Source: a virus. From it: 39,612 nt of DNA. The stretch spans positions 1-39,612 of the IMG/VR virus record IMGVR_UViG_3300022707_000822; one strand, given 5' to 3'. The position numbers and the translations under genes were made by a program. Each line of letters starts with the position of its first letter. Position 1 is the first letter of the stretch. Under the pieces are notes generated by a model, which saw only the letters and a program-made list of their open reading frames with translations, made no database searches and had not been told where the DNA came from. Below are positions 13,097 to 25,351 of the stretch, piece by piece.

Positions 13097-13291
13097 TTAC
13101 CAATCATTAAAATCTTCGATATTATTACTACCTGCCCCTTCTAAATCCCATTGTTCATGCCAATCATTGTATTCGGATAAAGAGCAGTAAGGTATAACAT
13201 AACATTCTTCAACTACCCTAGGATAAAGATGCCAAGGGTTATACAGATACTCATGAACTACCCATTCAAAGTCCACACCCCAATCATACAT
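13097..13291 (-). CDS. Acidic aromatic-rich hypothetical protein (64 aa)
   Basis: The product has an unusually high Trp/Tyr content with acidic residues (MYDWGVDFEWVVHEYLYNPW, YNDWHEQWDLEG). The ribosome site is weak (AAGAGAG about 19 nt upstream), so translation may depend on the gene before it. Composition resembles small host-takeover proteins that bind host partners, but no family was recognised. Confidence 0.5.
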   Translation of the reverse strand: MYDWGVDFEWVVHEYLYNPWHLYPRVVEECYVIPYCSLSEYNDWHEQWDLEGAGSNNIEDFNDW

Positions 13292-13319
13292 TCTTGCTAG
13301 GGATTGTTGCTCTCTTTTA

Positions 13320-13496
13320 TTATATTTCCTCTACGATATCATTCAACCTTTCTAAATCCCTACGTATATTTTTAAATAGTAATTCAATCTCACCTTTGTC
13401 GTATGTGTTTACTTTTAAGACATAGGAATAGTCATCTAAGTAATCTAATGATGCTTTTATCTCGGTTATATTCTCTTTAAGCTTATCTTCGTCCAT
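13320..13496 (-). CDS. Small coiled-coil-like protein (58 aa)
   Basis: A GGAGAATAAC ribosome site precedes ATG 13496. The protein is almost entirely helical and charged (MDEDKLKENITEIKASLDYL, IRRDLERLNDIVEEI), with no cysteine or membrane segment. It is 9 bp downstream of the 109-residue gene, in the same operon. Function unknown. Confidence 0.6.
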   Translation of the reverse strand: MDEDKLKENITEIKASLDYLDDYSYVLKVNTYDKGEIELLFKNIRRDLERLNDIVEEI

Positions 13497-13505
13497 GTTA
13501 TTCTC

Positions 13506-13835
13506 CTAAACTGTTTTCAACTTCTCTGTCAATTCATCAATATACCGCATTACTACTTTCTTATCTTTTTGTGATTCATTTCCATATTCAAAATAATCAT
13601 CTATTTGATTAACAGTTCTCAATACTAACATTGATAATTTTACATAGTCTGTTTTATCTTTGGATTCACAAGGGAATTCATAAGTTAAATCTCCACTATC
13701 AATGAATTCTTGCATCAGTTCTTCTGCTCGTTCTGCAGAACCTAGCTCACCCATTTTAGACGTAGCATCTAATGTGTCATCAATACCTGCTAGATATGCT
13801 AGTCGCATCAGTTCTAAAAATTCTTGTTTATTCAT
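13506..13835 (-). CDS. Acidic helical hypothetical protein (109 aa)
   Basis: The ATG at 13835 overlaps the preceding TGA (ATGA), with GAGAAGGAG upstream. The product is helical and acidic (MNKQEFLELMRLAYLAGIDD, GSAERAEELMQEFIDSGDL). The LAYLAGIDDTL stretch followed by an EEL..FI segment recalls small phage proteins annotated only as hypothetical. No catalytic residues evident. Confidence 0.6.
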   Translation of the reverse strand: MNKQEFLELMRLAYLAGIDDTLDATSKMGELGSAERAEELMQEFIDSGDLTYEFPCESKDKTDYVKLSMLVLRTVNQIDDYFEYGNESQKDKKVVMRYIDELTEKLKTV

Positions 13836-14017
13836 CGTTGTTCTCCTTCTCTCGTCTTATCCATATTACTAAAATAATCCTTACCATAAAAAGCTTCCAT
13901 TAATGCTTCATATGCAAAGTTGGTATCGATCTCTTCACCACCTTCCAATTCTTCTTGATGGTAGGATTCTGCTAATTTACGAAGAGGGTCTAAATCTATT
14001 TCAGTGGTTATCTTCAT
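13832..14017 (-). CDS. Acidic hypothetical protein (61 aa)
   Basis: The start is set at 14017, where AAGGAGATTAAC precedes ATG; the ATG at 14044 has no site. The product is acidic (MKITTEIDLDPLRKLAESYH, EELEGGEEID) and helical. It is coupled by ATGA overlap to the next gene. No known family. Confidence 0.55.
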   Translation of the reverse strand: MKITTEIDLDPLRKLAESYHQEELEGGEEIDTNFAYEALMEAFYGKDYFSNMDKTREGEQR

Positions 14018-14027
14018 GTTAATCTCC

Positions 14028-14264
14028 TTATAAAATAACTTCAAACAAACTGTTACTTATCACGGTAACATTCTCATCAACAGGATTGCCATATAAACAA
14101 CGGCCTCTCTTGATAACTTTCAGGGACATTTTATTAAAAGTGTCGTGTGTTGCTTCTCCAACCACCACAGTGAGTATGCCATTTCTTTGCTGAGAGTATC
14201 CATATACTTTCCCAGCTTTGATGATATTATTTAATGCATCAGTAAAACCTCTTTTCATAGTCAT
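14028..14264 (-). CDS. Small basic beta-rich hypothetical protein (78 aa)
   Basis: The ATG at 14264 begins 1 bp after the stop of the tape-measure-like gene, so translation is probably coupled. The product is basic and beta-rich (NGILTVVVGEATHD, SLKVIKRGRCLYGNPVDENV). No motif recognised. Its tight link to the tape-measure-like protein makes a joint role worth testing. Confidence 0.55.
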   Translation of the reverse strand: MTMKRGFTDALNNIIKAGKVYGYSQQRNGILTVVVGEATHDTFNKMSLKVIKRGRCLYGNPVDENVTVISNSLFEVIL

Positions 14265-14265
14265 A

Positions 14266-14649
14266 TTATTTATTAAACCTTTCTTTTAATTTTAAAGAAA
14301 ATATTGGCAATATTTTATCTGACAATAATCCTCCTTTAATCTGAATATCAAACATAGCTGATGGTGTACTATTAAGAGTTATTCTTGCTTCAAAAGAGGC
14401 TTCTGCCATTAATGTTACAGCACAAGGTAAGCCTTCTGCTAGCTGACATTTAAGGTCTTCTGCTGTAATTACTCCTTTGGAAATCATACTTGTAATAGCT
14501 TTGATGCTCCTGTTGGTCTCTGACTCTGATAGTCGTAATTTATCACCAGTTATATGTATTGAGTTAAATAAATCATTTATATCTTCTAATGACATACTGC
14601 TTATTTCATCTAAATATAATATCAGTTCTTCTTCTGAATAACGTTTCAT
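14266..14649 (-). CDS. Stand-alone tape-measure-domain protein (127 aa)
   Basis: Residues 51-84 (AITSMISKGVITAEDL...) align without gaps to residues 342-375 of this phage's own tape-measure protein (AITQMLSKGKISAEEL...), with 20 of 34 positions identical by eye. After a linker, residues 98-118 (SAMFDIQIKGGLLSDKILP..) align to tape-measure residues 393-413, with 11 of 21 identical. This is the conserved tape-measure domain (TIGR02675 type) that normally occurs inside proteins of hundreds of residues. Here it makes up nearly the whole protein, behind an acidic helical N-terminus (residues 1-50). It is encoded on the opposite strand among early genes, 11 kb from the tape-measure gene. It might occupy tail chaperones or compete with another phage's tail assembly; function is inference. 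Confidence 0.8.
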   Translation of the reverse strand: MKRYSEEELILYLDEISSMSLEDINDLFNSIHITGDKLRLSESETNRSIKAITSMISKGVITAEDLKCQLAEGLPCAVTLMAEASFEARITLNSTPSAMFDIQIKGGLLSDKILPIFSLKLKERFNK

Positions 14650-14651
14650 AA

Positions 14652-14843
14652 TTATCCCTCCATCATTTTTAATATAAAATCTTTAGTAATATCAGCGGAG
14701 GATTGTGTGTCGTCAAAGGATGTATTTCCAAACATGCCGATACATTCCATAGTATCTCTCATGGTCATAAGATCTTCTCCTAACCTACAAGAGACTTTCT
14801 TGTGTATTGTGATAAAAAGTTTTTGTATTTCATTTGGTCCCAT
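14652..14843 (-). CDS. Small hypothetical protein (63 aa)
   Basis: ATG 14843 lies just past the methyltransferase stop with GGAGAAATAGC upstream, and the gene ends 2 bp before the tape-measure-like gene. The product is helical (MGPNEIQKLFITIHKKVSCR, ITKDFILKMMEG), with two cysteines. No family recognised. It may form a functional unit with the next two genes because of the tight spacing. Confidence 0.55.
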   Translation of the reverse strand: MGPNEIQKLFITIHKKVSCRLGEDLMTMRDTMECIGMFGNTSFDDTQSSADITKDFILKMMEG

Positions 14844-14844
14844 G

Positions 14845-15630
14845 CTATTTCTCCTCTGTATTATAGGTATTTAAAGTATCACAGTGTTTGATCCATTGCA
14901 AACTTTTATTGAACCGGTCTGTATCTTTCTCTATTACAATTGAATTCCTACCCTCAAGATAACATGCCACAGCAACAGAGAAGCTCCCTGCAGTAAAGTC
15001 TAAGACAGTATCTCCTTCGTTAGTGTATGTTCTGATCATCTCACGTAAGAACCATAGAGGCTTCTGTGTACTATGCAATTTAATCTTTTGTTTATCACTT
15101 GGACCTTTCAACACATCGCGAGGATAACGGTCTGTTTGCCCACCTCCAGAGATACCTAACTCCGTTTTACCATACAACTCTCCATCTCCTGTATGTTTGG
15201 TATAAGAGTTAGCAGGTTTATGCCCCATAGTCTTCTGTGGGTTGTACACAGGAAGTTTATCATAAAATACCATACAGACTTCATGTGATTTCATTGGCAT
15301 TTTCTTAGCATTAAGATGTCCAGTAGCTTGAGTCTTCTCCCAAACCCATTCGTATTTCAATTTACGTATATTAGATACAGCTAACACTTTATCAAAAGGT
15401 AATTGGCCCCACAAGAGAATAGGAGTTTGTTTTATTGTTATAGGAGATAACCAATTCCACATTTCAGGTAGGTTGATTGGTTGTTGGTCCCAATCCGATT
15501 GCGTAGTATTGTAAGGGAGATCAGTAAGGATCATACTAATAACTGGAAGGTCTTTCACGTCAAGGAAATCCCTGTTAATACAACGGTGCGTAGTGCCGTT
15601 GGGTTTTGTTATTGTAGTATCCTTAATCAT
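14845..15630 (-). CDS. Orphan DNA methyltransferase, N4/N6-amino type (261 aa)
   Basis: S-adenosylmethionine-dependent methylation of adenine N6 or cytosine N4 is expected. Motif IV TDLPYN (residues 36-41) stands for the canonical (D/N/S)PP(Y/F). The distal SAM-binding motif I reads VLDFTAGSFSVAVA near residue 215 instead of the usual DPF.GSGT. HSTQKP, typical of the beta class, precedes it. Motif IV before motif I is the beta-class order. No restriction endonuclease is adjacent, so it probably protects phage DNA against host restriction or marks it. The start overlaps the preceding stop region by 8 bp. Confidence 0.85.
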   Translation of the reverse strand: MIKDTTITKPNGTTHRCINRDFLDVKDLPVISMILTDLPYNTTQSDWDQQPINLPEMWNWLSPITIKQTPILLWGQLPFDKVLAVSNIRKLKYEWVWEKTQATGHLNAKKMPMKSHEVCMVFYDKLPVYNPQKTMGHKPANSYTKHTGDGELYGKTELGISGGGQTDRYPRDVLKGPSDKQKIKLHSTQKPLWFLREMIRTYTNEGDTVLDFTAGSFSVAVACYLEGRNSIVIEKDTDRFNKSLQWIKHCDTLNTYNTEEK

Positions 15631-15898
15631 TGGTACAGTACCAACCTAGTTTACCCAATTTAAAACTTCTCCAAACAATATCAGATAAGTTATCGGGATG
15701 ATTAGGATCTTGGTTAACTCCGTCGATAATCATAGAAGTATCCTCTTCGTAGTCTTCCCAAAGTTTAGCCTCATTCCTTAGCCACATAAGATTAGGTCCC
15801 TCTTCTCTAACCGTATCAATAATATCGGTATCCATATTTGAAAATTCTTCTTCTAATACCTTGTAAGCTCTTTTGAATCTTTCATTGATTGTTGTCAT
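15623..15898 (-). CDS. Acidic hypothetical protein (91 aa)
   Basis: The start at 15898 is chosen because AAAAGGAGTAATT precedes it; the upstream in-frame ATG at 15928 overlaps the preceding gene and has no site. The product is acidic and helical (VLEEEFSNMDTDIIDTVREE, LWEDYEEDTS). Its end is read through the methyltransferase start. Function unknown. Confidence 0.55.
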   Translation of the reverse strand: MTTINERFKRAYKVLEEEFSNMDTDIIDTVREEGPNLMWLRNEAKLWEDYEEDTSMIIDGVNQDPNHPDNLSDIVWRSFKLGKLGWYCTND

Positions 15899-15909
15899 AA
15901 TTACTCCTT

Positions 15910-16287
15910 TTATTCTATAAAATCCCAAATCTCTTTAGGTTTATTGTGTACAATACCATTGGATGCACATCTAAGAGCTGCTGTCCATTGTTTAATATAA
16001 CTATTAGAATATTTCCCGCCCTCTACCTGTTGTCTTTTCATATTTAAAATAGTACTAACAGCTGAGGTAGATATCTCCGCAAGTATTAATAGTAAAGAAA
16101 ACAACTGATAAGCGCTAGGTCTTCTATTCCCTGTAAATTGTCCTGTTGCTCCTCTTAATATATCATCCACCCAAGGCTCTACGAATAGTCCATAAGACTC
16201 ATAATCATACACCATATCAAAATCTTTAAGGATAGCCCTCGCCTCCATATTATCATACACAGCAACAGACCCTTTCTTTCGTGCCAT
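15910..16287 (-). CDS. Hypothetical protein with a possible helix-turn-helix (125 aa)
   Basis: First gene of the methyltransferase operon, with GAGGAGAATTTT before ATG 16287. The N-terminus is basic (MARKKGSVAVYD). Residues about 57-90 (RPSAYQLFSLLLILAEISTS, then AVSTILNMKRQQVEGGKYSN) could form helices of a DNA-binding domain, with ISTSAVSTILNMKRQQ as a turn-plus-recognition-helix candidate. The hydrophobic run is too short and interrupted for a clear membrane segment. A regulator of this operon is plausible but unproven. Confidence 0.55.
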   Translation of the reverse strand: MARKKGSVAVYDNMEARAILKDFDMVYDYESYGLFVEPWVDDILRGATGQFTGNRRPSAYQLFSLLLILAEISTSAVSTILNMKRQQVEGGKYSNSYIKQWTAALRCASNGIVHNKPKEIWDFIE

Positions 16288-20936: not shown

Positions 20937-22229
20937 TTAGGAATACTTATTAGATAAACCTCCCAATACTGACTCTGCTATATAATGGACATTATTTATA
21001 TCCTGTTCTGATAATAGAAATAAATCTTTAACTATATCCGAATCTATAATATCTAAATCAAAACATTCCCCTTCTCCCGCAAAAGTCATTTCAGGGAGGT
21101 AAGCATGTTTTTCAAGAAGGTCTTGAGTCTCCTGCTCAGTATCATACACGACCTGATGCCTGCTTTTGAACAATGCTATAGGAAATACAGTATACTCGTT
21201 AGGGAATTCATTGTACCTCCTAGAGGGGTTAAAAGACCTTCCTATCTTCAAAAAGTACTCACCGTCTTTATAGAATAGTATCAAATACAAATAGTCATCT
21301 TCATCAACCCTTTCAGGATAAAATCCCCAATCTTGAGAAGATTTAGAACAACGATAACACCTATGACCAGAATTTATATAATTGTTTACTTTAGAACGAC
21401 AAGGATGTCCTTTAGGACAAGTCCATTCAAACCTAGACATACTACCTAAATACTTCCCAAACCACTGGTCGAATACCCCTGAATTTTCTGATTCCATAAT
21501 GCTTTGTATTTTGAATTGCCTTTGCTCCAAGGTAAAACGTCCCACTTTACTACATCTACACGGAAGTTTACCTTCCAAGAAGTGACCAACAGTTGCAGTA
21601 AATACCCCACTACATACCCCAGCCTTGACGTATTCGTCCTCGGAGCAGACACCACAGTACATATCCCAATAGTTACAATGTCCATTAAGACTTTTCTTAG
21701 TTAAATTTTTACTAAACGTAGTCCCTTCAGGGTAGTTATTATTATTCATAAAACTAGTTACGTAAAACTTATCAGGTTTAGTTTTAATGCGACCAATTAA
21801 ATTTGCCTTACATTTAGGACAACCCCTATTTTGAAATAAAGCATCAATGGTCGTGGAGGTCCACAAGTTACCATCAATTTCACAGAATAACTTTAATTTA
21901 GTTCTTTTGTGCTTCCAATCCCCATAAAAACCTTTAAATACCATTTTTCTTTTTATACACTCCCTCTTAATACGTATTTTATACTGAGCCTTACTCCACA
22001 TAACTGCCTTGGAACAACCGCAAGGTATAACCCCTCTTTCCAAAGAACCTTTTGTGCTTGTGATGTTATCAGGGAAAAGCTCTGTATCTTTACTGCATAC
22101 ATTACACTCAATTCGATATTTTGTACTAACTCCCTTTACTTTTGGGATTTTAGATACTACAGTCAGGGTACTTCCTTTAGGAGTAGTAAAAGTTCTCCCT
22201 ATAAAATCATCTACAGTTTCTTTACACAT
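20937..22229 (-). CDS. Homing-endonuclease-like protein with C-terminal GIY-YIG (T5orf172/MUG113-like) domain (430 aa)
   Basis: The C-terminal 120 residues carry YLYLILFYKDGEYFLKIGRS followed by NPSRRYNEF, the YLY...KIGRS.NP..R pattern of T5orf172/MUG113 members of the GIY-YIG nuclease superfamily, with a candidate catalytic Glu in VYDTEQETQDLLEKHA. The first 300 residues hold repeated Cys-rich modules (CNVCSKD, CGCSKA, GCPKCKANLIG, CRCSKVG, CPKGHPC, CYRCSKS), probably zinc-binding DNA-recognition units. The gene is opposite in direction to the surrounding tail genes and lies between the tail terminator and the sheath. It has its own promoter and terminator, as expected for a mobile homing gene. 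The start overlaps the small HTH gene by 19 bp. Confidence 0.75.
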   Translation of the reverse strand: MCKETVDDFIGRTFTTPKGSTLTVVSKIPKVKGVSTKYRIECNVCSKDTELFPDNITSTKGSLERGVIPCGCSKAVMWSKAQYKIRIKRECIKRKMVFKGFYGDWKHKRTKLKLFCEIDGNLWTSTTIDALFQNRGCPKCKANLIGRIKTKPDKFYVTSFMNNNNYPEGTTFSKNLTKKSLNGHCNYWDMYCGVCSEDEYVKAGVCSGVFTATVGHFLEGKLPCRCSKVGRFTLEQRQFKIQSIMESENSGVFDQWFGKYLGSMSRFEWTCPKGHPCRSKVNNYINSGHRCYRCSKSSQDWGFYPERVDEDDYLYLILFYKDGEYFLKIGRSFNPSRRYNEFPNEYTVFPIALFKSRHQVVYDTEQETQDLLEKHAYLPEMTFAGEGECFDLDIIDSDIVKDLFLLSEQDINNVHYIAESVLGGLSNKYS

Positions 22230-24581: not shown

Positions 24582-25109
24582 ATGAAATATAGTACAGTTA
24601 TGATCAGTAAGGTCATCAAAGGTATTGATGGCACAGAACGTTTGTACAAAGCACGTAAGATGTCGTCCATGACAGTCGCTAAAGAGGGGTTTAAGCTGTT
24701 AAAATCAATCACCCCTAGCATAGGGGCTGGTGTAGACAGTATGGTGGCACAACAGACTCGGGAGAGCTTATTCGAGGATGGGCAAGCCCACACCTTCGGT
24801 GCAATGATGCAATTACTCTCAGAGAATATTTCAGATGAGCACTTTGAAGATTTATCTATGAGATTATTGGGTAGCCTAATGCTCGGTGATGATGAAATCA
24901 AAGATTTAGATAAACACTTCGATGAATTTTCAGGGGATTTTATAGAAATTCTTTGGTGGTTAGGTAAGGAAAACTTTGCAAATTTTATAATGGGGAGCGG
25001 TACGTTAGTCTCTTTGATGAGTCAGCTAACAGACCTGATGAGTCCGACAATGAAAGACGCAATAGAGAGTGTCAAGAACTCACTAAGCACCGCTTCCAGC
25101 ACAGAGTAA
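24582..25109 (+). CDS. Tail assembly chaperone (175 aa, zero-frame product)
   Basis: A soluble helical protein in the position between tube and tape measure that is occupied by G/GT-type chaperones in contractile and non-contractile tails. Helices are visible in SLFEDGQAHTFGAMMQLLSE and EEIL-like regions such as DFIEILWWLGKENFANFI. The ribosome site is GAGGAGAG. A slippery heptamer at 24980-24986 lies in codons 133-135, and the -1 frame is open from 24968 through 25351, so a longer fusion protein is likely. The product should bind the tape measure during tail assembly and be absent from the mature tail. Confidence 0.75.
   Translation: MKYSTVMISKVIKGIDGTERLYKARKMSSMTVAKEGFKLLKSITPSIGAGVDSMVAQQTRESLFEDGQAHTFGAMMQLLSENISDEHFEDLSMRLLGSLMLGDDEIKDLDKHFDEFSGDFIEILWWLGKENFANFIMGSGTLVSLMSQLTDLMSPTMKDAIESVKNSLSTASSTE
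24980..24986 (+). promoter_or_regulatory. Candidate -1 ribosomal frameshift site AAATTTT
   Basis: The heptamer A-AAT-TTT matches the X-XXY-YYZ slippery pattern in the zero frame (GCA AAT TTT, residues 133-135). It lies 12 bp after the last -1-frame stop (TAA 24965-24967). Slippage would give a fusion of 135 zero-frame residues and 121 -1-frame residues. No other heptamer in the overlap fits the pattern. Confidence 0.6.
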
Positions 25110-25162
25110 TAAAACATGCTGAAAAGAAAAGACCAGAATTCGTAATTGATAACTGGTTTTTT

Positions 25163-25351
25163 ATGATTTACAACAGTGAATTCTGCAATGAATCTATGAA
25201 GACCTTGGAAGAAGATATGAGTTTTGAGCAGTTTGCTGATCTATCTGACAAGGTTATGTACTATATGGATTTGAAGCAAGCCGCAGAAGAAGACTCTAAA
25301 ACAGAACAAGCAAGACAAGATGCCATAAATAAAGTAAGACCAAGAGGATAA
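25163..25351 (+). CDS. C-terminal part of the frameshifted tail chaperone
   Basis: The first ATG in this frame is 25163, but it has no ribosome site. The same frame is open upstream without any ATG, GTG or TTG and encodes plausible protein right up to it (KKRPEFVIDNWFFMIYNSEF). The segment after it (LEEDMSFEQFADLSDKVMYY) continues that fold. The real product is therefore probably the -1 frameshift extension of the 175-residue chaperone, comparable to lambda gpGT or P2 E+E'. It ends 6 bp before the tape-measure start. Confidence 0.7.
   Translation: MIYNSEFCNESMKTLEEDMSFEQFADLSDKVMYYMDLKQAAEEDSKTEQARQDAINKVRPRG

Follow-up and report, generated by a model that had tools for sequence, protein, structure and literature searches.

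What could a phage gain from a solitary domain of a tape-measure protein (TMP) that is encoded outside the tail module? The question is posed by P0001, a 127-aa protein encoded on the minus strand (14266..14649) of a 39,612-base viral contig, here called the window, and recognized from sequence, profiles and predicted fold. Judging by its sequence, the window is part of the genome of an ICP1-like phage (marine Vibrio virus). This assignment is based on the 67-70% identity of its methyltransferase to those of ICP1, 10AMN and qdvp001, and on the likeness of its TMP to vibriophage TMPs, the nearest being those of vibriophages 1.063.O and 1.170.O. At the DNA level, nothing among deposited phages closely matches the late half of the window.

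A stand-alone tape-measure domain

The reading frame of P0001 is intact, and its product aligns in BLASTP with residues 310-423 of the phage's own TMP (46 of 114 positions identical, 40%; E 2e-21). The latter (P0002; 25358..27418, plus strand) is an uninterrupted 686-aa protein in which the homologous domain occupies approximately residues 296-423. The two blocks of similarity reported in the first-pass annotation held up on recounting, with 20 identities among 34 positions (P0001 51-84 against TMP 342-375) and 11 among 21 (98-118 against 393-413). The TIGR02675 model narrowly exceeds its curated cut-off (21.7 bits; cut-off 21.35), and Pfam TMP_3 (PF20155), a longer model, scores 22.4 bits (E 1e-4), short of its gathering score of 41. 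Many PHROG tape-measure families match P0001, the best at 5e-15, and a TMP-only profile yields 97.6 bits, compared with 9.3 bits for the top of 3000 shuffles of P0001; PADLOC returned no match.

The AlphaFold (AF2) model of P0001, built with 48 homologous segments, consists of seven helices (pLDDT 93.8, pTM 0.87). The model of the counterpart region of the phage's own TMP contains the same helices along with two preceding ones and a longer last helix that runs into the rod. The TMP domain opens with two helices that P0001 lacks. The seven after these are all present in P0001, which stops where the TMP enters the rod; with this helix content and end point, it could present the domain surface but not scaffold a tube. 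Nearly all BFVD matches of the P0001 model are TMPs (TMq ~0.8, rmsd mostly 1.3-2 Å). Among the 50 matches listed, a single target is shorter than 200 residues, namely, A0A2I7QTX1 (113 residues; TM 0.69 by target length), which may be the vibriophage protein NVP1063O_176 discussed below, as the length and the accession series fit. A fold search of the PDB with the P0001 model matched no solved structure, and deposited TMP chains containing this domain are detectable by sequence. P0001, as modelled, would offer a small soluble handle on a TMP domain for which that search found no folded solved structure.

Compared with TMPs of the TIGR02675/PF20155 type, such as those of RYC, 1.063.O and ICP1 (about 650-710 aa), P0001 is alike in the seven-helix domain, with up to 42% identity, the near-invariant residues and the close structural match, but is devoid of the rod, the coiled coil, the membrane part and the first two helices, and its gene lies on the opposite strand, away from the tail module. 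The features expected of a functional TMP, a long length-setting rod and a tail-module position following the chaperone, are both missing. The original description of a domain without the coiled coil, the membrane part or the length of a TMP thus agrees with the BLASTP, TMP-only profile, fold and BFVD results, and its relation to the TMP domain is borne out by profile (TIGR02675) and structure comparison alike. P0001 is a real, complete and intact stand-alone TMP domain without rod or membrane parts.

HK97 gp15, which mediates superinfection exclusion, is a membrane protein that acts at DNA entry from the membrane side. It is linked to the TMP, as is P0001, and an exclusion role of this type was among the earlier suggestions. 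Inspection of the P0001 sequence and model reveals no evident membrane segment or signal, and the protein is predicted to be a soluble all-helical domain, in effect the TMP domain itself. Given this predicted solubility and the action of gp15 at injection, on the membrane side, a gp15-type role is not supported.

Genomic neighbourhood

P0001 belongs to a minus-strand block (~5.0-19.1 kb) that consists chiefly of small genes and includes a helicase and a phosphatase; the plus-strand tail module with the chaperone and the TMP comes after this block. The gene is separated by gaps of 1-2 bases from both neighbours, a 63-aa frame immediately upstream in the same operon (14652..14843, minus strand) and a 78-aa frame immediately downstream (14028..14264, minus strand), neither assigned to a family, and is preceded by a putative Shine-Dalgarno sequence, GGAGGG (14656..14661, minus strand), in accord with the earlier view of an intact frame coupled to its neighbours. 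A DNA methyltransferase (14845..15630, minus strand), about 63-70% identical to the enzymes of ICP1, qdvp001, 10AMN and other vibriophages, lies nearby. The first-pass annotation had placed P0001 in an early operon, on the strand opposite the TMP and next to this methyltransferase. The strand and the proximity are correct, but the 63-aa frame lies between the two genes, and the early assignment derives from gene layout. In ICP1, the methyltransferase and the TMP are encoded on the same strand, so that opposite strand alone is no evidence of timing. We infer early expression of P0001 from the gene layout together with the pattern in ICP1, where most of the early genes are short and hypothetical (PMC7567579).

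In relatives, the slots flanking the methyltransferase are filled by different small genes in each phage, so that the corresponding region of the window (13097-16287, minus strand) is a hypervariable accessory locus; the slot after the methyltransferase contains other small genes in these phages, none with a TMP domain.

The tail assembly chaperone (24582..25351, plus strand), a candidate partner of the domain, has its second part in another, overlapping frame; this frame stays open through the end of the first one, in keeping with programmed frameshifting. Just before the tail genes, in the late region, a gene for a CapR + T5orf172-type nuclease occupies the opposite strand (20937-22229, minus strand). 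Tail operons bracketed by nuclease genes are known for ICP1 relatives (PMC10448857), and the placement of this gene is similar.

Free-standing copies in other phages

Whole-record profile searches covered 23 relative phage records, two of which are ICP1 isolates. TMPs are present in all 23, and short stand-alone proteins in two; no direct counterpart of P0001 was found in any. The two proteins, NVP1063O_176 (113 aa, phage 1.063.O) and NVP1193O_049 (116 aa, phage 1.193.O), are unannotated, much diverged and 41% identical to each other. Each is encoded near a POG1963 gene (L059 3500-3841; L141 4959-5309), on the strand opposite the TMP and outside the tail module, and together they comprise a candidate new family. 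With the TMP-only profile, NVP1193O_049 scores 22.0 bits (best shuffle 8.9) and NVP1063O_176 12.4 bits (best shuffle 8.5), and profile-profile comparison of the pair with the domain family, in an alignment that contains P0001, gives a probability of 94%. NVP1193O_049 has NRATDAVIQMITKGMVTPEEYKMQLVEAYP at the place where the 1.063.O TMP has NRATNAIQQMMSKGVVSAEELKLQLGEVMP. Like P0001, these proteins are short and free-standing, come from non-tail regions and share the helix-turn-helix motif at the core of the TMP domain; unlike P0001, they have other neighbours, and their sequences show no recognizable C-terminal part of that domain. From the alignments, only the core motif can be considered certain for this pair.

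Thus, with the window included, free-standing TMP-domain genes occur in 3 of 24 records, at different loci. Such copies are recurrent in one phage group and yet rare, accessory and fast-evolving. The literature searched describes no free-standing TMP fragment, consistent with the original statement to that effect, which now has to accommodate two unannotated vibriophage proteins that carry the core. The short homologues sought in other phages exist as two diverged non-tail proteins but not as direct counterparts.

No further stand-alone copies were detected in 93 viral contigs and 50 genome contigs, in searches that are biased towards TMP-like sequences and that diverged copies would escape. 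A few phage records have a second place that matches. No close relatives of P0001 were found in viral contigs, genome contigs or plasmids. The short domain frames picked up by the profile turned out to be TMP exons, frames cut by contig ends or frame-broken TMPs; two of the latter (L084, L149) have a small chaperone-like gene upstream.

Constraint, age and origin

Conservation was gauged on the columns of 57 TMPs, where near-invariant columns show >=90% agreement and variable ones <50%. P0001 retains 14 of the 16 near-invariant TMP residues, compared with 12 of 59 residues at variable columns. When neutral substitution was simulated from the phage's own TMP domain, with substitutions only and frameshifts not counted, a stop-free frame survived in 2.6% of the cases at divergence to 50% identity and in 1.3% at divergence to 40%. 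Little is left of the DNA likeness between the P0001 gene and the TMP gene, which implies that the copy is old.

In the phylogenetic tree, P0001 falls within the vibriophage TMP clade (98/93), near RYC, 1.063.O and others (87/91). Its branch is very long (2.39 changes per site), so its exact position appears unsure. A simple recent duplication of the phage's own TMP seems unlikely from these comparisons.

These data bear on the possibility that P0001 is the leftover of a decaying TMP gene, which the first-pass annotation had entertained, or a stray TMP copy of recent date. The failure to find a close orthologue outside TMPs would fit such an origin. The retention of the near-invariant residues and the gene's own ribosome site argue against a remnant, as do the intact frame, the tight spacing to the neighbours, the rarity of stop-free frames in neutral simulations, the age of the copy and the confidently predicted fold. 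Neither relaxed constraint nor a broken frame, the marks of a pseudogene, is seen, and the lack of a direct counterpart in relatives is accompanied by constraint that is kept. We consider this origin highly improbable.

Tail-directed immunity and the possible role of P0001

That bacterial immunity can be directed at tail assembly (Tab, Tai, Rta) has been recognized only recently, and little is known of phage counters beyond TMP mutation or anti-Tab. Rta, an 80-aa protein of the satellite PLE11 that is already there before infection, blocks ICP1 tail assembly, and all reported ICP1 escape mutations, including the natural L362P and N355S, map to TMP residues 314-387 (PMC12987554). With the numbering of the ICP1 TMP fixed by placing the exons such that N355 is N and L362 is L, this region maps to P0001 35-108 (14326..14547, minus strand), with N355 corresponding to C76 and L362 to E83. 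Thus, if the inhibitor is Rta-like, P0001 holds the targeted region. By simple arithmetic, a stretch of ~107 aa placed at random in a 678-aa TMP would cover all of 314-387 ~6% of the time.

We tentatively propose that P0001 is a decoy that protects tail building from a tail-assembly inhibitor, a role we rank slightly above those of a regulator, a dominant-negative agent or an exclusion factor. A TMP domain would have split off from the tail ruler and been relocated among clustered small genes that are probably early. Made ahead of the late genes, P0001 would bind and soak up a putative resident inhibitor of the Rta or Tab kind that attacks this TMP domain, so that the full-length TMP, made later, could nucleate tails unhindered. 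In this scheme, we infer the early timing, the inhibitor binding and the benefit to the phage.

Several observations point to the proposed decoy: P0001 covers the Rta-escape region of the related ICP1 and would be a copy of the target of Rta; the domain is accessory, occurring in few records and at different loci; and the combination of constraint at near-invariant positions with fast change along the branch fits an arms race. There is also a precedent in the anti-Tab protein of Pseudomonas phage JBD26: the prophage protein Tab targets the TMP C terminus, and anti-Tab counters it by binding Tab (PMC10884400). If P0001 is a decoy, both are phage proteins that neutralize a TMP-targeting blocker by binding; anti-Tab differs in that it is not described as a TMP fragment and is encoded in the late operon of a temperate phage. 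Other observations weaken the case. N355 and L362, the two escape positions singled out in ICP1, have other residues in P0001 (C76, E83), although they are variable among TMPs too; no Rta-TMP binding was detected by co-immunoprecipitation (PMC12987554); and the target of Tab is a different part of the TMP. Furthermore, the overlap with the escape region could reflect merely the main, best-conserved folded part of the TMP.

An alternative that we find doubtful is that P0001 poisons the tails of satellites or competitors by occupying a putative partner, the chaperone or the baseplate hub, that their TMP needs. PLE satellites, which carry genes for a TMP and a chaperone of their own and make chimeric tails (PMC12987554), would be a natural target, and in the tree P0001 stands with other vibriophage TMPs (RYC, 1.063.O) and not with that of its own phage, a weak indication given the long branch. 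However, the TMP of PLE11 is merely 20% identical to that of ICP1 (PMC12987554), and the phage's own tails should suffer as well, unless spared by timing or specificity. The same partners figure in the less likely case that P0001 regulates assembly of the phage's own tails, holding the chaperone or hub until the TMP is made or capping premature nucleation. The phage has a matching chaperone and TMP, and the predicted fold of P0001 is intact, but 21 of the 23 relative records make tails without such a gene, which indicates no general need, the gene lies outside the tail module, and the own TMP is not the closest relative of P0001 in the tree. Recruitment of the fold for a non-tail role, such as early binding of a host protein, appears less probable again: it would suit both the location of P0001 among small genes of no assigned function near the methyltransferase and the two other short proteins that have just the core motif in common, and is at odds with the retention of nearly all TMP-invariant residues, beyond what a bare scaffold would need.

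With a shade more reserve than for the P0001 decoy itself, one may ask whether phages of the ICP1 group use free-standing TMP domains as decoys or poisons in conflicts with satellites and prophages over tail assembly. P0001 is a real, constrained, free-standing TMP domain with a putative function linked to tail-assembly immunity. If the decoy proposal is true, freeing the attacked domain as a separate protein would open a new route of counter-defence, a target mimic directed against TMP-targeting immunity of a kind undescribed in the literature searched.

Introns in the tape-measure genes of relatives

Introns interrupt the TMP genes of relatives within this domain (PMC10448857), which is also seen in the relatives compared here: apparent introns occur at several different points of the domain in many of them (L002, L051-L057 and records W12, W16, W20 and W22). 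We considered whether P0001 could be a stray copy generated through intron homing and rejected this scenario, given that the gene has no adjoining nuclease gene and its DNA likeness to the TMP gene is near zero. In phage 11895-B1 (W12), the TMP domain seems to carry two introns with a tiny middle exon between them. In Vibrio phage PS17B-2 (L002 2155-4480), two tape-measure genes are annotated, with several tiny hypothetical genes between; this pair is more likely to be a single intron-interrupted TMP.
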